From Laspinema sp. D2d (GTDB lineage Bacteria; Cyanobacteriota; Cyanobacteriia; Cyanobacteriales; Laspinemataceae), in assembly GCF_025370755.1 (NCBI RefSeq), contig NZ_JAMXFC010000014.1, positions 62,001 to 126,000 of the forward strand: DNA of 64,000 nt. The letters run 5' to 3'. The position numbers were made by a program, and so were the translations under genes. Each line of letters opens with the position of its first letter. Within the stretch, counting starts at the first letter, position 1. The notes below the pieces were generated by a model that was not told the DNA's origin, did no database searches, and was given only the letters and a program-made list of their open reading frames with translations. Shown piece by piece: positions 8,191 to 61,249 of the stretch.

Positions 8191-8676
8191 TTAGCTCAAG
8201 CCAGAGCAGATGTAGTCGAAGTAGACGCCCATTTCTTTACCGGCATCAGGACCTACCAAACCGGCGGTCACTTCTTTCATGGCTTGGATTGCTTGCACGG
8301 TTGCACCGATCGGCACACCCAAGGAGTTGTAGGTTTCTTTCAAGCCATTGAGCACGCGCTCGTCGAGGATGGAGGGGTCAGCCGCCAGCATCGCATAGGT
8401 GGCATAACGGAGGTAGTAGTCGAGGTCACGAATGCAGGCTGCATAGCGACGGGTGGTGTACATATTACCACCGGGACGGGTTACATCCGAGTACAGCAGG
8501 GACTTGGCAACGGCTTCCTTAACGATGGTGGCTGCATTGGCGCTGATAGCGGTTGCAGCACGAACGCGGAGTTCGCCGGTTTGGAAGTAGCCCTTGAGTT
8601 TGTCAAGAGCGGAGTTGTCTAGGTACTTACCTTGGACGTCAGAGGAATTGATAACAGCAGTAATTGCGTCTTGCAT
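8191..8676 (-). CDS. apcB: Allophycocyanin beta subunit
   Basis: Beta chain of allophycocyanin, forming alpha-beta monomers that assemble into the trimers of the phycobilisome core on the thylakoid surface. The length of 161 residues is exactly that of the family. The phycocyanobilin-attachment cysteine is in [15 protein letters not shown] (about residue 81), preceded by the [11 protein letters not shown] segment that bears the conserved methylated asparagine. It follows apcA after a 68-bp gap with a plausible ribosome binding site. Confidence 0.98.
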
Positions 8677-8744
8677 CTTTTATGTTTCCTTAAACTGCGC
8701 GATCTGTGATTATTTACCTTAAACGAATGGAGTAGAGAACAGCT

Positions 8745-9230
8745 CTACTGCATCGCACCGATAACGTAGTCGAAGTAGGAGCCAGCTTCGGCTGCATCTT
8801 CAGCAGACAGTAAGGAAGCAGCTACGTTCTTCATGGCACGGATGCCTTCTGCAACGCCTTCAATCGGGGTGCCGAGAGATTTGTACATTTCACGAACACC
8901 GACAATTCCGATTTCTTCGATCGGGGTGACGTCGCCAGCAACGATTCCGTAGCTGATCAGACGCAGGTAGTAGTCCAAGTCGCGCAGGCAGGTGGCGGTC
9001 ATTTCTTCACCGTAGGCGTTGCCACCGGGAGAAACAACGTCAGGACGCTTTTGGAACAGTTGATCGCCAGCTTGCTTGACGATACGCTCGCGGGATTCGC
9101 TCATGATTTGGGCGATGCGAACGCGGCGCTCACCAGTGGTGACGAAAGACTTGATCCGATCTAATTCGCCGGGGCTAAGGTAGCGAGCCTCAGCATCTGC
9201 ATTCACGATGGACTTCGTGACGATACTCAT
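8745..9230 (-). CDS. apcA: Allophycocyanin alpha subunit
   Basis: Alpha chain of allophycocyanin; 161 residues as expected. The bilin-binding cysteine lies in [17 protein letters not shown], and [11 protein letters not shown] precedes it. An excellent Shine-Dalgarno (GGAGGAAG, at 9239-9246 on the minus strand) precedes the ATG by about eight bases, in keeping with very high expression. First gene of apcA-apcB-apcC. In many cyanobacteria apcE lies directly upstream; here apcE is about 6.1 kb away and accessory genes lie between. Confidence 0.98.
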
Positions 9231-9740
9231 TAACTACTTCCTCCAACAATGAGAGTGTGTATCCAGATATATAAGATATTAATCTGGGTTTTGCAAGACC
9301 TTTCTCGGGATTTTGTGTCTTTAGGTTTTTTTACTCAGTGATGGGGTTTGAGTCCCTTTCTCCTGAGTTACCCCACTTCTCCCTAGCAGTATTCTAGGGG
9401 AATGTGGTTCACAAAAAAACTTTTGACTTCGACTGGATTTTGCAAATACGGATATTTTGCATCATCACGTTTACATTCGCACTCCTTACTTAATATTTTG
9501 TAACAATTTTCCTCAGTTAAAGGGGGTGGGACCCCTATTTTTCGCCCGGTAGCCCCACCCTCTCAAGTTAATAATTGGTAATTAGGTAAATTATTGTAAT
9601 TTAGGCGCTAAAATTGCGTATCTGTAATTTAAGCGGTAGGACCTCCCAGAATGTGATGGGTCGCCGAAGAAGGTTAAAATGGTGGTAGAGTTTCCAACCC
9701 ACCCAAACGGGTGTCTTGTAGCTTACCCAATAGACCCCTA
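9231..9740. promoter_or_regulatory. Upstream region of apcA (510 bp, no gene)
   Basis: No gene is visible. The space between divergent apcA and a Uma2 gene should contain the strong light-regulated apc promoter and a leader. The apcA-proximal 70 bp are AT-rich (ATATATAAGATATTAAT at about 9268-9284). Exact promoter boxes cannot be assigned by eye. Confidence 0.45.
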
Positions 9741-10292
9741 ATGATTGCCATTCCCCACTACATCAGCCCCAGCGACTATCTGGCCCTCGATCGTCAAAAC
9801 CCCATCCGCCACGAATACCGACAGGGTTTGGTTTACGCCATGACCGGAGGGACCGATCGCCATTCACGGATTGCAATAAACCTCCTGAGTGAGATTGATC
9901 GACACCTTGGTAACTCACCCAGTCGCTTCTACGGCAGCACTGTAAAAGTCAACTACAAGGATGAGTTTTATTACTATCCCGATGCTTTCGTAACCTGTGA
10001 CCCGCGCGATCGCCAAGACCGCTATATTAAACGCTATCCCAAATTCATCGCCGAAGTCCTTTCAAGCAGTACCGAAGCCTTTGACCAGGACCTCAAATTC
10101 ACCGACTACCAAAACCTTGATAGTCTGGAAGAATATGTTCTCATTTCCCAAGACAGCCAGCGCGTTGAATGCCGTCGCCGCATCGCTGCCGATACTTGGG
10201 AAACTACGATTTATGAGGCGGGCGATCGCATCACCCTCACCAGCCTTGACCTTGAATTTTCCCTTGAACGACTCTATCGGGGTCTGGATTAA
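9741..10292 (+). CDS. Uma2 family PD-(D/E)XK nuclease-fold protein
   Basis: A compact Uma2 (DUF820) protein of 183 residues from ATG 9741. Typical landmarks: YLALDRQNPIRHEYRQGLVYAMTGGT, RFYGSTVKVNY, the acidic YYYPDAFVTCD strand, and PKFIAEVLSSSTEAFDQDLK, which supply the D and E-x-(V/L) positions of the nuclease fold. A GTG ten codons upstream (9711) is an alternative start. The substrate and role of this family are not established. It is the first gene of the accessory block between apcA and apcE. Confidence 0.88.
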   Translation: MIAIPHYISPSDYLALDRQNPIRHEYRQGLVYAMTGGTDRHSRIAINLLSEIDRHLGNSPSRFYGSTVKVNYKDEFYYYPDAFVTCDPRDRQDRYIKRYPKFIAEVLSSSTEAFDQDLKFTDYQNLDSLEEYVLISQDSQRVECRRRIAADTWETTIYEAGDRITLTSLDLEFSLERLYRGLD

Positions 10293-10643
10293 CCCTCAAA
10301 CTCTGATGCTAACTCACTTGCACAGATGCAGGTTCAAATACGCTGTTTGGTGAAAGGATGGGTAAATCTAGCGCAATAGCGCCAAAGTTGGTAAGAACAG
10401 CGATGCCTCTGGAGGAATGATGACAGATCCGGCAACGGCTAGTTTGATCGATCTCTTGCTCAAGCCTTCACCCAAGAATGTATTATGGAGGGATTGCCCG
10501 AGCAACCACCCGGATAACCTGGACTACAAAAACTGGTCCGTCTACTGCAAATCTTTAAATTTGGGGTTCGCCGTGTCACCCACCGCTTTTTCCCACCTCC
10601 CCCAGCCAACACCTGTTTTCTATGGACTCATTCAATTTACCCC
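10293..10643. other. Mostly non-coding gap before the R-M fusion gene
   Basis: Apart from the doubtful small frame at 10417-10647, there is a 20-codon frame at 10358-10420 (begins MGKSSAIAPKL) that ends next to GGAGGAATGATG. The stretch may be a decayed gene with several frameshifts; no family could be recognised. Confidence 0.3.
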
Positions 10644-10647
10644 ATGA
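10417..10647 (+). CDS. Doubtful 76-residue ORF overlapping the R-M gene by ATGA
   Basis: The frame begins after GGAGGA (very close to the first ATG, better spaced to the second at 10420) and its TGA overlaps the ATG of the R-M gene in the arrangement ATGA, which would allow translational coupling. The protein (LIDLLLKPSPKNVLW, then a Pro/Phe-rich end) matches no family I know and has poor secondary-structure character. It may be a leader peptide, a remnant, or chance. Confidence 0.25.
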   Translation: MMTDPATASLIDLLLKPSPKNVLWRDCPSNHPDNLDYKNWSVYCKSLNLGFAVSPTAFSHLPQPTPVFYGLIQFTP

Positions 10648-13600
10648 AACTCGCTGATATCCTTAAGGACTCAAATTACAAGCCGTCACAATTTACGCCG
10701 GATGAAATTGAGCAATTGGAACAAAGTATTACTCTCAAGACAACGAAAAGCGGTGAGGTTCCCTACACAATTTGCTTAGTCCGACAGAAATCAATCAAGC
10801 TCACGCCAGAGGAAGCAATTCGTCAGCTATATTTACGGGTGCTAACTGATCGCCTGCATTATCCCCTTAGCCGTATTCAGGTGGAATATGGGGTGAATTT
10901 TGGGCGGGAGGTGAAGCGGGCAGATCTTGTGGTGATGGACAAAGATCGTCCTAACACGGCGTATATGGTGGTGGAGGTCAAGAAGCCGAAGCTGAAGGAT
11001 GGGAAAGATCAACTTCGCTCGTATTGCAACGCGACGGGTGCGCCGATCGCTGTTTGGACGAATGGCGAGCAAATTTCCTATTACCAACGCAAAGACCCGA
11101 ACTATTTTGAAGATATTCCCGATTTGCCAAATGTTAATCAAACTTTGGCAGATATTCTACAAATCAAGTTCACCCTACAAGATCTGATCGACAATGACAA
11201 GTTGGTGAAGGAGAATAAATCACTCAAAACCTTGATTGAGGAAATGGAAGATGAGGTTTTGGCGAATGCTGGGGTGGATGTATTTGAGGAGTTGTTTAAG
11301 CTGATTTTTACGAAACTTTATGATGAGTGGTATTCGGGTCAAGGCAACAGGCGATCCACTCGTTCGCTGGAGTTTCGCAATACGGGGCAAACGGAAGGGG
11401 CGCTGAAAACGAAGATTCAGGATCTGTTCGATAAAGCTAAGAAAAAATGGGAAGGGGTGTTTAGTGACGATGCTAAGATTAGCCTCACGCCGTCGCATTT
11501 ATCGGTGTGTGTGTCGTCGTTGGAGAATGTGAAGCTATTTAACTCTAACCTTGATGTGATTGATGAAGCCTTTGAATATTTGATTAACCAAAGCAGCAAG
11601 GGCGACAAAGGGCAATATTTCACGCCGCGCTATGTGATTGATATGTGTGTGAAAATGCTCAATCCCCAAGAGGATGAGTACATGATCGACACAGCGGCAG
11701 GGTCATCGGGGTTTCCGGTGCATACGATTTTCTATGTGTGGCGGCAGATTTTAGAGGATGAAGGGTTACAAGCGAGTCATTTATTTTCCTTAGAAGATAA
11801 GCCGCCCCGATGCAAAGAGTATGTGGAAGACAAGGTGTTTGCCATCGATTTTGATGAAAAGGCAGTGCGGGTGGCGCGGACGCTGAATCTGATTGCGGGG
11901 GATGGGCAAACGAATGTGTTGCACCTGAACACGCTGGATTATGAATTGTGGGATGAGGTCACGGGGCAGGAGGAGTGGAATGATGTTTACCATGAGGGTT
12001 TCAGGCGACTGAAAAAACTAAGACCGAAGGGTCTTAAAGACTATCGAGAGTTTCAGTTTGATGTGTTGATGGCGAATCCGCCCTTTGCGGGAGATATCAA
12101 AGAACCGCGCATGATTGCCCGCTATGACCTGGCGAAAAAGCCGGATGGCAAGTGGCAAACTAAGGTGGGGCGCGATATTTTGTTTATTGAACGAAATCTG
12201 GACTTTTTGAAGCCGGGGGGCAGGATGGCGATCGTGCTTCCCCAGGGGCGATTTAATAATTCTTCTGATAAGAATATTCGTGATTTTATTGCGGAACGTT
12301 GTCGGATTTTGGCGGTGGTGGGGCTACATGGCAATACGTTTAAGCCGCACACCGGAACGAAAACTTCGGTGTTGTTTGTGCAGAAGTGGAATGATGACCG
12401 GAAGGCGGGGGCACTGTGTCCGCGCCGGGATGATTACAATATCTTTTTTGCGACGATGCAAAAGTTAGGGAAGGATAATTCGGGGGATAAGATCTATGTG
12501 AAAAAAACTGATGAATCGGGTGATTTTCTCTGGGATCACCATAAGCATCGGATTGTGGATCATGATTTGTTTAATCATGACCGCCTGACGGAAGACGGGA
12601 TTGCAGAGGCATTTATTGAGTTTGCGAAAAAAGAGAAGCTCAGTTTTTTTGAACCCGGCCCATCTGTTAAACCGTTTGATGCTGACAAGTATCAGCGGTT
12701 AATAGATGGGCTTGAAATCGCAGAAGTTAAATATCAGAAAGTTATGCAAGAAAGCTATTCTTCTAGGATAGATAGCACGTTTTTTCATAAGGAGTTCTTA
12801 AAATCTATTCTCAATGATACAGAATCTTGGGAACTCAGGGAAATCTGTCAAATCAGAAGCGGTACAACACCACCTGATAGAGACGAAAACCTAAAAGAAG
12901 GAATAATACTCCTCAAAACTAATGACATCCGAAATAATGTTTTAACGAATAACAATATAGAAAATTATTTTTTCATTGATGAAGCCATTAACATCCGTAT
13001 GAAAAATACACAACTTCAAACAGAAGATGTGTTGATAAATATTGTTGGTGCTACAACCGATGTTATTGGGCGTGCAGCTTTTGTATCTGGCAATTTTCCC
13101 AAGGCTAATATTACTCAAGCAATGAGTTTCTTAAGGATTAAGGATAGAAAATATGTCGATCCGTGTTATTTATTTGTATTCTTAAGCTGTTTTTATGGAA
13201 ACCAGCAGGTTAGGAGAATTGCTAGACCAACAGGTCAATATAACATGAATCTTGTGGAAGTTAGCTCTATAAAATTGCCTGTTGTAACTTTTGACTTCCA
13301 GAAAAAGATTAGAGGTGGGGTTACTAGATCTAAAGCTTTACTTGAGAGTTCCAAAAGAATCTATTCTGAAGCTGAAGATTTACTGTTGGCGGAGCTTGGC
13401 TTGGAGGACTGGCAACCGACTGAAGAAACCGTTGCGGTCAAGAGTTTTACGGAGTCGTTTCTGTCCTCCGGTCGCCTCGATGCTGAGTATTACCAGCCAA
13501 AACAGCAAAAAGTCATGGCAATCATGCGTCAGTCCGGTCTTTGTATTGATGATGTTGTCTCACTCGCAAAGCGCAAATTTCATCCCGAACAACAAGGCGC

Positions 13601-14135
13601 GTTTAATTACATTGAAATTGGCAATCTCAGCGGAGAAGGTTTTGCTAGTAGTGAAGTAGTACCAATAGAAGAAGCCCCCAGTCGAGCGCAATGGATTGTC
13701 AAAACTAACGATGTAATTACGTCAACCGTTCGCCCGATTCGCAGACTTTCAGCCCTGATTGAACCAGAGCAAAATAACTACATTTGTTCTTCTGGTTTTG
13801 CTGTTCTCAAACCAACCAAAATAGAGCCAGAAGTTTTACTGGTTTATTTGCGATCGCCCATTGTGTGTGAAATCCTGGATCTTCATACTACGGCTAGTAT
13901 GTATCCGTCAATTTCAACTGAGGATCTGTTGAATATTCCGATTACTCTACCGAAAGAATCTACTCGTCAGAAAATCACAGAAAAGGTCAGAGCATCTCGC
14001 AAAGCGCGGGAGCAATCCAAACAACTGCTAGAAATTGCTAAAACAGGAGTAGAACAAGCGATAGAGCAGGATGAAGCAACAGCAACCGCTTGGATTAATC
14101 AGCAGCTTGAAATCTTGGGGGTTGAATTGACATGA
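10644..14135 (+). CDS. Single-chain restriction-modification enzyme: nuclease, N6-adenine methylase and specificity domains
   Basis: A 1163-residue fusion. Residues 1-150: a type I HsdR-N-like nuclease domain with Asp94 (RADLVV) and Glu111-x-Lys113 (VVEVKK), a PD-(D/E)XK pattern. Residues 320-560: an HsdM-like N6-adenine methylase with GQYFTPRYV, motif I DTAAGSSGF (about 349-357) and motif IV NPPF (about 478-481). About 740-1140: two HsdS-like target-recognition halves, beginning SSRIDSTFFHKE and SGRLDAEYYQPK, with helical spacers. No helicase motor or separate hsdR is present, so it is best viewed as a type IIG-like (or solitary type I-like) enzyme that modifies DNA and may cut it. It lies between apcA and apcE. 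The first recognition half (about 12750-13400) is visibly more AT-rich than its flanks. Confidence 0.9.
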   Translation: MKLADILKDSNYKPSQFTPDEIEQLEQSITLKTTKSGEVPYTICLVRQKSIKLTPEEAIRQLYLRVLTDRLHYPLSRIQVEYGVNFGREVKRADLVVMDKDRPNTAYMVVEVKKPKLKDGKDQLRSYCNATGAPIAVWTNGEQISYYQRKDPNYFEDIPDLPNVNQTLADILQIKFTLQDLIDNDKLVKENKSLKTLIEEMEDEVLANAGVDVFEELFKLIFTKLYDEWYSGQGNRRSTRSLEFRNTGQTEGALKTKIQDLFDKAKKKWEGVFSDDAKISLTPSHLSVCVSSLENVKLFNSNLDVIDEAFEYLINQSSKGDKGQYFTPRYVIDMCVKMLNPQEDEYMIDTAAGSSGFPVHTIFYVWRQILEDEGLQASHLFSLEDKPPRCKEYVEDKVFAIDFDEKAVRVARTLNLIAGDGQTNVLHLNTLDYELWDEVTGQEEWNDVYHEGFRRLKKLRPKGLKDYREFQFDVLMANPPFAGDIKEPRMIARYDLAKKPDGKWQTKVGRDILFIERNLDFLKPGGRMAIVLPQGRFNNSSDKNIRDFIAERCRILAVVGLHGNTFKPHTGTKTSVLFVQKWNDDRKAGALCPRRDDYNIFFATMQKLGKDNSGDKIYVKKTDESGDFLWDHHKHRIVDHDLFNHDRLTEDGIAEAFIEFAKKEKLSFFEPGPSVKPFDADKYQRLIDGLEIAEVKYQKVMQESYSSRIDSTFFHKEFLKSILNDTESWELREICQIRSGTTPPDRDENLKEGIILLKTNDIRNNVLTNNNIENYFFIDEAINIRMKNTQLQTEDVLINIVGATTDVIGRAAFVSGNFPKANITQAMSFLRIKDRKYVDPCYLFVFLSCFYGNQQVRRIARPTGQYNMNLVEVSSIKLPVVTFDFQKKIRGGVTRSKALLESSKRIYSEAEDLLLAELGLEDWQPTEETVAVKSFTESFLSSGRLDAEYYQPKQQKVMAIMRQSGLCIDDVVSLAKRKFHPEQQGAFNYIEIGNLSGEGFASSEVVPIEEAPSRAQWIVKTNDVITSTVRPIRRLSALIEPEQNNYICSSGFAVLKPTKIEPEVLLVYLRSPIVCEILDLHTTASMYPSISTEDLLNIPITLPKESTRQKITEKVRASRKAREQSKQLLEIAKTGVEQAIEQDEATATAWINQQLEILGVELT

Positions 14136-14144
14136 GGACCACGA

Positions 14145-14284
14145 AAGCAAGACAGAAAAAAGTTTATCCTTAACACCCTACGGCAGCGGGTCGGACGCTT
14201 GGTTCGTAGTTCTGATTTAATCAAGAGAACTAGGAATTTGTCTCGTATATGGATTTCGGAGATAGCTGATATTTGGGGGAAATG
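14145..14284 (+). pseudogene. Possible IS1-family transposase C-terminal remnant
   Basis: In the frame continuing past the R-M stop codon, bases 14175-14207 encode TLRQRVGRLVR, which resembles the C-terminal segment of IS1-type transposases; the rest, to a TGA at 14282-14284, is not conserved. No inverted ends or other transposase parts are present. It could be a tiny relic of an insertion or a coincidence. Confidence 0.25.
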
Positions 14285-14320
14285 AATAATGATTAAGCGC
14301 TAATTTTTGATTTTTATTGG

Positions 14321-14653
14321 TTAATAGAAGGTCAATATTCCAAGGCAAGAGTCGTTTGTTAACGTTTTGATGTCCGCTTCGTGAGATCGCAAAATTGATT
14401 CAATTTCTGATGTAGAACAGTTCCCCCGACGTATCCAAATCACTTTGGGTGGAAATCCTTTCAGCATGAGTAATTCGTTATAATCGCTATCTTTGGTGGC
14501 AATGATAAAATCATGGCATCGGGCATAATCCCAAACCGTTTGATCGTCGGCCTGGTCTAGGCCAATGGTGGAAACGTGAGTTGATTCAGGAAATAGATCC
14601 GCCAGTCGCTGTACCAATCGAGGGGAGAGATTGTGATCAAATAGCAGTTTCAT
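14321..14653 (-). CDS. DUF5615 PIN-like protein (putative toxin)
   Basis: A DUF5615-type PIN-like protein of 110 residues: start MKLLFDHNLSPRLV, the acidic IATKDSDYNEL motif in the middle, and the PPKVIWIRRGN strand. In this family the N-terminal D and the central KDSD supply PIN-like metal-binding acids; ribonuclease activity is presumed, not shown here. The ATG at 14651-14653 overlaps the TGA of the upstream DUF433 gene, so the two are coupled. The frame is open upstream to 14704 but the extension is inside the DUF433 gene. DUF433-DUF5615 pairs are regarded as probable toxin-antitoxin units. A paralogous pair lies at 20499-21070. Confidence 0.88.
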   Translation of the reverse strand: MKLLFDHNLSPRLVQRLADLFPESTHVSTIGLDQADDQTVWDYARCHDFIIATKDSDYNELLMLKGFPPKVIWIRRGNCSTSEIESILRSHEADIKTLTNDSCLGILTFY

Positions 14654-14874
14654 ACTTGCACCTGTAAGGTTTGGTGTTCGCGCTCGGCGGCATAGCTCAG
14701 GCAAGCCAAGATATCTTCTTGGGTAAGATAGGGAAAGTCATCCAGGATTTCTTGGTAGGTCATGCCAGAGGCTAAATAAGACAGCACATCATAAACGGTG
14801 ATTCGCATTCCACGAATACAGGGTTTACCACTGCGTTTGCCCGGTTCTAGGGTGATGCGATCGCTATAGTTCAT
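14650..14874 (-). CDS. DUF433 protein (putative antitoxin)
   Basis: DUF433 proteins are small winged/HTH-like proteins found just upstream of DUF5615 genes and thought to be the antitoxin and autoregulator. From ATG 14874 it has 74 residues with the hallmark RITLEPGKRSGKPCIRGMRI, then VYDVLSYLASGMT and ILDDFPYLTQEDILACL. AAAGAGGT lies about eight bases before this ATG, which decides the start over the longer frame to 14940. Its 3' end overlaps the DUF5615 start by four bases. Confidence 0.9.
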   Translation of the reverse strand: MNYSDRITLEPGKRSGKPCIRGMRITVYDVLSYLASGMTYQEILDDFPYLTQEDILACLSYAAEREHQTLQVQV

Positions 14875-14988
14875 TGTTTGGACCTCTTTTTCAATTTTTT
14901 CAATAATTAGTGACTTTGATTTTGCCGGTAACGACATCATCTCAAGGCAATAACCAATGTACTCATTATGGCTGACGATGGGCAGTTT

Positions 14989-15094
14989 GCGATCGGCCTC
15001 GGTGGTCTAACAGCGGCGATGAAACCCAGCGCCGCGCGGATAGAACCAGGGATTATGGGCGATCGGCCTCGGTGGTCTAATAGCCGCGATGAAA
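14989..15094. repeat. Two copies of a 36-bp direct repeat, 70-bp period
   Basis: GCGATCGGCCTCGGTGGTCT followed by AAYAGCSGCGATGAAA occurs at 14989-15024 and 15059-15094 with two mismatches, separated by 34 bp. No third copy is found at the next expected positions on either side, and no cas gene is in the window. It is probably a local duplication carrying a HIP1-like core. Confidence 0.75.
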
Positions 15095-15256
15095 TTCCAG
15101 ATAGAGAGCATCCCGCCATACTGGGAGAGTCGCCACCTGCGGGGTTTCCAAGCCATGCAGATAATCAGTCGCTGAGGAAAAAGCCGCCCGGGGGAAGTGG
15201 AGCCACCGTCATTATCGCCCACCCCCGGCAACGACCTGCGATCGGCCCAACCCATC

Positions 15257-15287
15257 AAAAAACCCAGTCTGTCATCCAGACTGGGTT
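15257..15287 (-). terminator. Rho-independent terminator of apcE
   Basis: On the minus strand CCCAGTCTG (15277-15285), a 5-base loop and CAGACTGGG (15263-15271) form a perfect 9-bp stem followed by six T (15257-15262). It lies about 72 bp past the apcE stop codon, so apcE is transcribed separately from apcABC here. Confidence 0.9.
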
Positions 15288-15358
15288 ATCTAACTCTTGT
15301 CAAGAAGAGATAAATCTAATCAAACCTATCTCCCCTCAAAAATTGCATCTCCTCAAAA

Positions 15359-19049
<3,691 letters not shown>

Positions 19050-58555: not shown

Positions 58556-61249
58556 ATGTCAAATTGTGTCCAAAAACTTCATACCTTTATCACCTATTGT
58601 CAGCAACATATCAAAGGCGACGAGAAGGGAGAGGCACAAGTCTTTTTAGACCGTTTCTTTCGGGCATTTGGTCACGAAGGGGCATTAGAAGCCGGTGCCA
58701 GTTATGAGGAAAGAGTTAAAAAAGGGAGCAAAACGGGGAAAACTGGCTTTGCCGATTTGGTATGGAAACCTCGGGTTTTGATTGAGATGAAAAAACGGGG
58801 AGAAAAGCTTCAAAAACATTATTCCCAAGCGTTTGATTATTGGACTCGCTTAGTTCCCGATCGCCCCCGGTATGTCATCCTCTGTAACTTTGATGAGTTT
58901 TGGATTTTTGATTTTGATATCCAACTCGATACTCCCATCGATATCATCAATTTACAACAATTACCGGAACGCGCCGGGGCGTTCACCTTCATGGAATTAG
59001 AGAACCGAACCCCGGTTTTTAATAACAATCAAGTTGAAGTCACCGAACGCGCCGCCCGACGCTTAGGAGAGTTATTTATAGAACTCAAAAAAACCAGAAC
59101 CCGTCGCGGATTTACTGAATCAGTCGCGCAACGATTTATTCTGCAATGTGTGTTAGCTATGTTTGCAGAAGATAGAGGACTGTTACCCCGTGATTTATTT
59201 ATTTCTTCTGTGCAAGACTGCTTGAATGGGGTAAGTTCTTACGACATTCTCGGCGGGTTATTCCGAGAGATGAATACACCGGGCATCACCGGCGCAGGAC
59301 GATATAAAGGGGTGGATTATTTTAATGGCGGCTTGTTTTCGGTCATTCATCCCATTGAATTAACTCGGGAAGAGTTACAATTTTTGGATGTTTCAGCGAG
59401 GGAAGATTGGAGTCAAGTTAGACCTGCCATTTTTGGCAATATTTTCGAGGGTTCCGTGAATGAAACCGAACGTCATACCTACGGAATTCACTACACCTCA
59501 GAAGCGGATATCATGAAGATTGTCCGCCCGACTATTAGCCGGTATTGGGAGGACCGAATCGAAGCAGCTACTACCATTCCAGAACTGAATGGCTTACAGA
59601 TGGAATTGCAAAGCTATCGCGTTCTTGATCCGGCTTGTGGTTCCGGTAATTTTCTCTATATTGCTTATCAAGAATTGAAGCGCATCGAACAGGTATTACT
59701 TGAAAAAATAGCCAGCCGTCGCAAGTCTCCTCGGGAACAATTAGAAATGGGCTTTGTAACGCCATTACAGTTTTATGGCATGGATACCAATCCGTTTGCG
59801 GTGGAGTTGGCAAGGGTGACCCTCGCAATTGCCCGCAAGGTGGCGATCGATAAGTTTGGATTGACCGAAGACCCTCTACCCCTGGATACCTTAGATAAAA
59901 ATATCGTCTGCCAAGATGCTTTATTTAACCAATGGCCGAAGGTTAATGCTATTATCGGAAATCCACCCTTTTTAGGCGGCAAACAGTTAAGAATCAATCT
60001 GGGCGATGACTATATGGATCGGGTTTTTGCTCGCTTTTCAAATGTTAAAGATTCTGTTGATTTTTGTGCCTACTGGTTCAGGTTAGCCCATGATGGTATA
60101 GAGGAGAATGGGAGGGCGGGATTAGTAGCAACAAATTCAGTAAGTCAGGGAAAAAGTCGGGTAGCAACTTTAGACTATATTATCCAAAATAGGGGTTATA
60201 TTCACGAGGCTATTTCCTCTCAACCTTGGTCTGGTGACGCAAAAGTTCATGTGAGTTTAGTAAACTGGGCTAAAGAAAAACCCAATCAATATTATTTAAA
60301 TAATACCCTTGTGTTTTCTATTAACTCTTCCTTGCAATCCACCTTAGATGTTTCCCAAGCAGCTAGACTCAATATTAATAAAAATTGCTGCTTTCAAGGG
60401 GTAATTCCTGTGGGAAAAGGCTTTATTGTCACTGAACAACAAGTCAAAACCTGGATTCAAGCTGAACCCAAAAATAAAGAAGTTCTCAAACTGTTTTCAA
60501 TGGGGTCAAATTTGGCTAAGAATCCCCAAGGTAAACCCGATCGTTGGATTATTGATTTTAATGAGATGACAATTGAAGAAGCCAGCAATTATAGTTTACC
60601 ATTTCAACATATTGAATCAACCGTTAAGCCAGAACGGGATAAGAATAGAGATGCAAAATCGAGAACATACTGGTGGAGATTCCTACGCCATCGCCCTGAA
60701 ATGAGAAATGCGATCGCCACTCTCTCCCATTACTTCACGGTTCCCCGAGTATCAAAATGGGCGATTTTTCTCCCTGCACCTTTAACTTGGCTACCTGGGG
60801 ATCTGAATGTTGTTGTCGCCTCCGATGATTTCTACATTCTGGGAATTTTAACTGCCAAGATACATCGCGTCTGGGTCAATGCTCAAAGTTCAACCCTGAA
60901 AGGCGATACGCGCTACACTCACAATACCTGCTTTGAAACCTTCCCCTTCCCCCAAAATCCTGATACCAAACAAGTAACTTCCATTCGTGAAATCACCCAA
61001 AAACTCCATGACTATCGTACTGAACAAATGGAATCGAAACAATGGGGAATCACTCAATTGTATAATAAATTCTTTGCCGAACCGACCAGCCAATTATCTA
61101 AACTCCACGCCGAACTCGATAAACTCGTGATGGAAGCCTATGGCTTTCAAACAACCAATGATATTTTAGAAAAATTGTTGCAATTGAATAGAGAACTGGC
61201 GGAAAAAGAAGCGCGAGGCGAGTTTGTTTTAGGTCCCCAAGCACCCTGA
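58556..61249 (+). CDS. Type IIL (MmeI-like) restriction-modification enzyme
   Basis: Single-chain nuclease and N6-adenine methylase, 897 residues. The N-terminal nuclease has Asp67, nine residues, Glu77-x-Lys79 (FADLVWKPRVLIEMKKRGE), the D-x9-E-x-K spacing of MmeI. After a helical spacer the methylase has motif I DPACGSGNFLYIAYQEL (about 358-375), an acidic YGMDTNPFAVELAR and motif IV NPPFLGGKQL (about 470-479). The C-terminal third holds the target-recognition region (FQHIESTVKPERDKNRDAKS) and a helical tail. In this family one strand of each site is methylated for protection and cutting occurs at a distance. Active-site residues look intact. Confidence 0.93.
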   Translation: MSNCVQKLHTFITYCQQHIKGDEKGEAQVFLDRFFRAFGHEGALEAGASYEERVKKGSKTGKTGFADLVWKPRVLIEMKKRGEKLQKHYSQAFDYWTRLVPDRPRYVILCNFDEFWIFDFDIQLDTPIDIINLQQLPERAGAFTFMELENRTPVFNNNQVEVTERAARRLGELFIELKKTRTRRGFTESVAQRFILQCVLAMFAEDRGLLPRDLFISSVQDCLNGVSSYDILGGLFREMNTPGITGAGRYKGVDYFNGGLFSVIHPIELTREELQFLDVSAREDWSQVRPAIFGNIFEGSVNETERHTYGIHYTSEADIMKIVRPTISRYWEDRIEAATTIPELNGLQMELQSYRVLDPACGSGNFLYIAYQELKRIEQVLLEKIASRRKSPREQLEMGFVTPLQFYGMDTNPFAVELARVTLAIARKVAIDKFGLTEDPLPLDTLDKNIVCQDALFNQWPKVNAIIGNPPFLGGKQLRINLGDDYMDRVFARFSNVKDSVDFCAYWFRLAHDGIEENGRAGLVATNSVSQGKSRVATLDYIIQNRGYIHEAISSQPWSGDAKVHVSLVNWAKEKPNQYYLNNTLVFSINSSLQSTLDVSQAARLNINKNCCFQGVIPVGKGFIVTEQQVKTWIQAEPKNKEVLKLFSMGSNLAKNPQGKPDRWIIDFNEMTIEEASNYSLPFQHIESTVKPERDKNRDAKSRTYWWRFLRHRPEMRNAIATLSHYFTVPRVSKWAIFLPAPLTWLPGDLNVVVASDDFYILGILTAKIHRVWVNAQSSTLKGDTRYTHNTCFETFPFPQNPDTKQVTSIREITQKLHDYRTEQMESKQWGITQLYNKFFAEPTSQLSKLHAELDKLVMEAYGFQTTNDILEKLLQLNRELAEKEARGEFVLGPQAP

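Follow-up and report, generated by a model that had tools for sequence, protein, structure and literature searches.

Type IIB restriction-modification enzymes in which a nuclease and a methylase are joined to their specificity parts have been described as single chains and as two-subunit assemblies. AloI, PpiI and TstI are listed as R-M-S1-S2 chains (PMC3874165; PMC4027205), and BcgI, BaeI, CspCI, BsaXI and NgoAVIII as an RM chain with a separate S subunit (PMC3874165); similarly, among the 16 type IIB enzymes modelled in PMC11997821, eight are given as RM + S and the rest as single-chain. TstI is described as a homotetramer that bridges two sites and cuts either side of each (PMC4027205), and the manner in which one catalytic unit serves two target recognition domains (TRDs) in the single-chain enzymes is called a mystery in one of these sources (PMC3874165). 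The present analysis concerns a restriction-modification-specificity (RMS) gene of the cyanobacterium Laspinema sp. D2d, found in a stretch of 64,000 nt (positions 62,001-126,000 of the forward strand of contig NZ_JAMXFC010000014.1, assembly GCF_025370755.1), hereafter the window. Its protein is very probably a single-chain type IIB-like (IIG) restriction-modification enzyme, with an activity predicted from sequence and structural model.

Parts and class of the RMS protein

An earlier note on this DNA, made from its letters and open reading frames, had placed a nuclease, a methylase and two recognition halves in one 1163-residue chain with no ATP-driven helicase. The open reading frame bears this out, and a domain search recovers HSDR_N_2, N6_Mtase, Eco57I (residues 397-561) and Methylase_S, the last in two stretches of which residues 726-906 give the better match (1.3e-10), and finds no helicase family in Pfam or NCBIfam at E 0.1. 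The residues D94, E111 and K113 and the motifs DTAAGSSGF and NPPF are likewise present where the note had put them, and the methylase motifs, with DTAAGSSGF before NPPF and the TRDs last, have the order of gamma-class methylases. In the specificity part, residues 987-1129 match the HsdS chains 5ybb and 3okg in a sequence search of the PDB, part of the TRD2 region resembles TTE-HsdS in sequence, and the S subunit 1yf2 is superposed by VIA-align on model residues 719-1149 (Z 16.3); sequence and model thus agree in placing R, M and a two-TRD S part in one polypeptide. The fusion is not a sequencing artefact, because full-length single-frame relatives occur in 24 of the 82 other loci examined. The organism's own genome (6.63 Mb, 83 contigs) holds one full copy of the gene, and six further matches are partial and weak.

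The N-terminal PD-(D/E)XK nuclease appears intact by sequence and model. In a conservation alignment of 77 rows, made up of L001 (the gene itself) and 76 relatives, D94, E111 and K113 do not vary, which makes a vestigial nuclease unlikely, and no position of NPPF is conserved in fewer than 76 rows. The best PDB match by sequence is RM.BsaXI (phmmer, 3.6e-21), to whose E105 and K107 the residues E111 and K113 are aligned; in BsaXI, alanine at E73, D90, E105 or K107 abolishes cutting (PMC11997821). An AlphaFold2 model from a 42-row alignment has a mean predicted local distance difference test (pLDDT) score of 77.0 and a predicted template modelling (pTM) score of 0.45, with blocks of the nuclease and TRDs at about 70-94 and most of residues 560-700 poor. 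Searched against the PDB with Foldseek, this model returns RM.BsaXI chains at ranks 1-3 (1.4e-17 to 8.9e-17), and VIA-align superposes the BsaXI chain 8w2p_A on model residues 4-584 with a Z of 24.3 over 502 residues (root-mean-square deviation 11.6).

Alternatively, the protein could be a type I M-S fusion that needs an HsdR encoded elsewhere, the N-terminal domain being structural or vestigial; an artificial EcoKI M-S fusion does work with HsdR (PMC3510504), and the six SWI2_SNF2 matches in the own genome, none of the six on the window's contig (C11), would fit such a distant motor. This arrangement is very unlikely, since invariant D94, E111 and K113 are unexpected for a vestige, the closest solved relative is a type IIB RM subunit and not a type I M protein, and an HsdR homologue lies near family genes in just one of 84 sources (L092, at a distance of about 5.6 kb). 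That count comes from BLAST searches with nine large open reading frames, taken from SWI2_SNF2 regions, against the frames of the 84 sources, some of which have short flanks; on these searches and a motif scan, a linked HsdR was rejected. The RMS protein and its locus lack an ATP-driven translocase, there being neither a separate HsdR encoded with M and S, as type I would have it, nor an ATP-dependent helicase in the same chain, as in the LlaGI-like type ISP design. It is highly improbable, too, that the protein is a methylase that marks DNA without restricting it, whether in a regulatory role or within a wider defence system of the MADS kind. The NCBIfam model MADS2 does match residues 42-633 (1.1e-95) and the MAD5 model matches the S part; the scores nevertheless fall under the curated cut-offs, far under for MADS2 (NF047738; 321.4 against 720 bits) and also for MADS5 (104.5 against 400), and the fully conserved nuclease residues of the family speak against a non-restricting methylase.

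Several points weigh against the type IIB-like assignment. The phmmer match to the nuclease part of BsaXI alone is weak (8.7 bits, ungapped), and it places BsaXI D90 two residues from D94. Domain placement in the model is unreliable because of the pTM of 0.45, the fold match before residue 187 is barely tested according to the alignment tool's own warning, and, of the structure matches listed, it is the BsaXI entries that extend into most of the nuclease. The best PADLOC model (PDLC03034, 1140.9 bits) labels residues 6-670 'Type I methyltransferase', a label that also favours the M-S fusion and is itself no test. The motif scan flagged frames with Walker A, GTGK-type and DEAH marks near L087 and L092; the helicase-like frame near L087 was unmatched by the HsdR queries, and the L092 frame alone was HsdR-like by BLAST. 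Furthermore, AloI and TstI are set beside the protein by their printed description, not by sequence homology.

The suggestion of the earlier note that type I-like parts had here been built into a type IIG or IIB design is nonetheless supported by the domains, the conservation, the RM.BsaXI match and the rarity of a linked HsdR; the intact catalytic residues and the reassortment of TRDs described below are likewise observed. In the mechanism proposed for the type IIB-like enzyme, the two halves of a bipartite site would be recognised by TRD1 and TRD2, one by each, and the methylase would add an N6-methyl group to one adenine per half-site. Where this mark is missing, the N-terminal PD-(D/E)XK nuclease would cleave the DNA on either side of the site, at fixed distances from it, in a reaction that would depend on Mg2+ but not on ATP. 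A multimer, as in TstI and AloI, would be expected, since each chain brings a single nuclease and a single methylase to its pair of TRDs.

The architecture is not unusual, because AloI, PpiI and TstI are already listed as R-M-S1-S2 chains; the RMS protein is a further member of an established single-chain class whose design is already in print. As described, those enzymes share with it the N-terminal nuclease, the gamma-methylase, the two C-terminal TRDs and the lack of a translocase in one chain (PMC3874165, PMC4027205), and the size printed for AloI and CjeI is about 1250 aa, as against 1163 here. The type IIB enzyme BsaXI, the best PDB match over nuclease, connector and methylase, differs in its separate S subunit and longer RM chain (916 aa), the C-terminal 'paddle' of which is reported as unusual among type IIB enzymes (PMC11997821). 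The split BcgI-like type IIB arrangement (2 RM : 1 S) has its counterpart in split relatives within the family, whereas the window's gene is fused.

Fused and split relatives and their recognition domains

A scan of genome contigs (genome_contigs) gave 295 stretches encoding a relative, of which the best 80 were kept; with the gene itself (L001), L008 and L009 these make up 83 loci. Some places carry two handles (L010 is L053, L164 is L041, and L144 and L166 are L047). By mechanical reading-frame criteria, 25 of the 83 loci have one full-length frame, 52 have an RM-type frame without a full S part (46 labelled split and 6 fused forms that a contig end or a stop cuts short), and the remaining 6 are partial in other ways. 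An S match follows the RM-type frame at 47 loci, the interrupted fused L044 and L047 included; the S frame is +2 in 41 of these, and the first start codon, as assigned mechanically, lies 30-36 nt past the RM stop in 36. Split RM parts, that of L053 apart, are 60-72% identical to that of the window and account for 46 of the 77 rows of an RM-part tree. On this unrooted tree, made by a quick method with the Shimodaira-Hasegawa-like approximate likelihood ratio test (SH-aLRT) only, the fused and split labels need at least six changes, and fusion or fission therefore probably happened repeatedly in the family, as judged from a tree sample that is the top of the list. In cyanobacteria, where the PADLOC RM-part model at 1e-60 matches 25 of 386 genomes, the split L053 has an RM part 88% identical to the window's over residues 1-616 and a separate S gene 37% identical. 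Fused and split relatives with such similar catalytic parts make the effect of fusion on stoichiometry and cleavage testable.

The recognition domains of the family reassort separately. TRD2 (query residues 958-1118) is 79.5-91% identical in L037, L038, L039, L042, L049 and L070; identity falls to 55% in the S protein of a split methylococcal system (L113) and to 51% in a Thiospirillum protein of the fused type (L068). The top identity for TRD1 is 35% among the 25 best of 63 matches, self excluded, and identity profiles along the chain show TRD1 to differ in the six relatives with the 79.5-91% identical TRD2; the two TRDs therefore move separately, and neither is tied to the catalytic part. 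The window's enzyme and these six relatives would be expected to have the TRD2 half-site in common.

Phase variation by simple repeats was considered and rejected: the simple tracts of the RMS gene are all short (G6, A7, T7 and short GT runs), and the interrupted alleles L038, L044, L047, L065 and L070 show no tract of 6 or more at their breaks.

Further genes accompany some family members. Downstream of the split RM and S genes of L076, a separate half-length S-like frame in opposite orientation (L076:8450-9211) is a possible inversion partner. A RhuM-family gene (L089:3962-4990) stands directly 3' of a split RM + S pair, and a gene of its BLAST cluster, by that membership alone, lies nearby in L075, L085 and L104. 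In 12 of the 83 loci (L051, L073, L077, L082, L084, L092, L099, L101, L111, L112, L113 and L115), an unnamed open frame of about 200-300 aa adjoins the RM(S) genes at no more than about 90 nt; it was not seen beside the window's gene. Three of its proteins match no Pfam family at that family's cut-off, and a model of one (about 277 aa, pLDDT 87) gives no PDB fold match with an E-value of 0.001 or lower. Near its C-terminus this protein has an invariant E-x2-Y-x2-R and an invariant H-G, which resemble HEPN ribonuclease motifs.

Small-gene arrays at the 3' core repeat

The search for relatives also returned short pieces matching the C-terminal part alone. They correspond to about 107 bp at the 3' end of the RMS gene, here called the core, a profile of which was run on the window and on loci from cyanobacterial searches. 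Among 48 aligned copies, short matches being left out, 23 stand at RMS gene ends (in L053, at the S gene end) and 25 elsewhere; the core is common to all, and the bases 3' of it vary with what comes next. The similarity of 21 of the 28 non-gene copies examined starts 60-125 bp from the core end, left boundaries that are partly set by the onset of TRD2 variability at this point. In the array table (L164 and L166 omitted), one or two further copies on the same strand follow the RMS gene in 6 (L037, L041, L042, L052, L163 and L169) of the 22 RMS loci whose downstream flank exceeds about 1.4 kb, L040 being excluded for its short flank; in L050 one copy precedes the gene instead of following it, some 7 kb away and in the same orientation.

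The arrays are made of same-strand small genes, mostly of toxin-antitoxin types, Uma2 and DUF559. By Pfam, the genes between cores encode Uma2, a nucleotidyltransferase (MntA) with HepT, a RelB-like protein with ParE, an antitoxin-like with a RelE-like protein, PemK, and DUF559; the 78-aa antitoxin-like protein has no Pfam match, one RelE match falls just under the cut-off, and two inter-core intervals (L125, L165) hold no panel gene. Their order differs between loci: Uma2 is followed by RelB/ParE in L037 and by MntA/HepT in L042, MntA/HepT by an antitoxin in L163, and RelB/ParE by antitoxin/RelE in L052; L041 has a truncated antitoxin followed by two Uma2 genes, and L043, L044 and L070 have the RelB-like gene directly. 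The spacing is mostly constant. From the core end to the gene start there are 9-10 nt for Uma2 (15-16 in L138 and L192), 9-12 for MntA (19 in L040), 38-40 for the RelB-like gene (21 to a truncated match in L126) and 32-41 for the antitoxin; in three cases the HepT gene stops 26-27 nt short of the following core, and most module genes end no more than about 45 bp from the core that comes next. The exceptions are nucleotidyltransferases about 35% alike at 27-32 nt (L169, L197, L198) and a 64% one at 175 (L177), the partner of PemK at 147 (L185), an antitoxin at 130 (L190), and DUF559 at 34 (L169) and 221 (L048). A panel gene lies within about 45 nt past the core in 11 of the 22 RMS loci; L048 has one at 221 nt and ten loci, the window's included, have none close.

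Because module order differs and spacing is mostly constant, modules may have been exchanged at the core. The 3' end of the RMS gene can tentatively be regarded as a recombination joint, at which shared toxin-antitoxin and nuclease modules were inserted, lost and shuffled and the RMS frame was restored each time; the modules at such a joint would be those named above, and this kind of cassette may, with the same reserve, be one that the literature searched does not describe. Arrays of this kind would be produced by homologous recombination from core to core, and equally by circles that carry one module and one core. It weighs against this view that the window has a single joint, which no module follows. 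The RMS stop is overlapped by an ATG, the arrangement also found ahead of Uma2 in L037, but in the window its frame runs for 13 codons only. The window's copy of the core shows no sigma-70-like promoter match.

Alternatively, the extra cores might be chance-preserved ends of decayed RMS genes near which unrelated toxin-antitoxin genes were inserted. Some copies are clearly relics with more of the gene attached (L126, L128, L174, L182, L185), the similarity boundary near the core is partly expected because the TRD2 upstream of it is variable, a few module starts lie 130-221 nt away (L177, L185, L190, L048), and 14 of 29 core loci from an even draw of 386 cyanobacterial genomes have no panel gene past the last core, as against 15 that do. 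These loci are partly the same places as before, and among the 18 under new handles, one of which (L171) looks like L038 again, 10 have a panel gene past the core. Decay of RMS genes does explain some core copies; it does not explain their excess over control segments. At E 0.001 the core segment is found in 40 of the 386 genomes (46 places) and each of two control 108-bp segments of the RMS gene in 9 (9 places); at 60 bits or more the figures are 29 genomes for the core, 9 for the methylase segment and 7 for the N-terminal one. These DNA searches scored two candidates per genome, so that the numbers of copies they give are minimum values. Moreover, the near-constant spacing is at odds with chance insertion, and L180 is an array with no RMS gene in sight: over its 3.1 kb it runs antitoxin, RelB/ParE, core, Uma2, core, Uma2, core, the core being the sole RMS sequence, and the 25 genomes matched by the RM model do not include its own (G291). 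Decay as the general explanation is therefore unlikely.

The 3' joint, were it a true site of recombination, would account for the gathering and shuffling of small toxin-antitoxin and Uma2 genes. In prokaryotes and cyanobacteria such genes have been described as clustered or as part of cassettes, and Uma2 genes as mostly forming cassettes of paralogues (PMC2701414).

Genomic setting and likeness to known arrays

Features of the RMS gene and its neighbours (window positions; residues refer to the RMS protein)
Feature	Position	Strand	Basis
Uma2-family gene upstream of RMS gene; neighbour	9711..10292	+	Pfam 2.8e-33
Single-chain RMS gene	10644..14135	+	ATG start, 1163 aa; full-length fused relatives
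PD-(D/E)XK nuclease domain, N-terminal, HSDR_N_2, residues 55-162	10806..11129	+	Pfam 1.5e-27; BsaXI fold match
Nuclease residues D94; E111; K113	10923-10925; 10974-10976; 10980-10982	+	Identical in 77/77 alignment rows
N6-adenine DNA methylase domain, N6_Mtase, residues 304-591	11553..12416	+	Pfam 2.4e-29
Methylase motifs DTAAGSSGF (349-357); NPPF (478-481)	11688-11714; 12075-12086	+	
TRD1, first target recognition domain, ~residues 712-890	12777..13313	+	Methylase_S match, model; no close relative among matches listed
CR1 spacer helix, model residues 883-917	13290..13394	+	AlphaFold2 model
TRD2, second target recognition domain, ~residues 963-1104	13530..13955	+	Shared with other family members
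CR2 spacer helices, residues 1105-1158	13956..14117	+	AlphaFold2 model
3' core repeat, ~107 bp, codes residues 1125-1160	14016..14123	+	DNA profile; joint between small-gene modules in relatives
ATG overlapping RMS stop codon, 13-codon frame only	14132..14173	+	Read from sequence; no panel gene after
DUF5615 gene, PIN-like toxin candidate, neighbour	14321..14704	-	Pfam
DUF433 gene, antitoxin candidate, neighbour	14650..14940	-	Pfam

The interval that holds the RMS gene, 9230-15360, is bounded by two phycobilisome genes at 8191-9230, identified by position as apcAB, and by apcE (15359-18610). In five genomes of the same genus (L129-L133), the DNA alignment from apcE stops exactly at window position 15257, beyond which the content differs and includes Uma2 (by DNA match), genes judged by eye to be PIN-like and, in L131, an EAD4-NACHT protein; here, within a cluster of photosynthesis genes, lies a site of variable cargo. 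Near the apcE end of this interval, positions 14989-15094 hold two copies of a 36-bp repeat, 94% identical and spaced by 70, and matching DNA is present in L129 and L132. The DUF433 family is a predicted antitoxin associated with PIN (PMC2701414). About 44 kb away and on the same strand as the RMS gene, a second type IIG-like gene with four MmeI Pfam domains occupies positions 58556-61249.

No description of arrays joined at an RMS 3' end was found in the literature searched, the coverage of which excluded subscription journals and preprints. One precedent comes from Microcystis, where a toxin-antitoxin module lies between repeats of the same orientation downstream of a cyanobacterial gene, behind MaOC1; as reported, these 152-bp direct repeats lie outside the gene and hold inverted repeats (PMC7935541). 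The RMS repeat, in contrast, is the coding 3' end itself and is common to several types of module. What the present analysis adds to the known enzyme design is the naturally fused and split pairs and the candidate 3' joint. Integron cassettes are alike in consisting of small genes in one orientation, rich in toxin-antitoxin types, with repeats of about 100 bp between them; the one consensus core folded here gave weak single-strand folding (-4.8 and -2.5 kcal/mol on its two strands), which may set the core apart from their attC sites.

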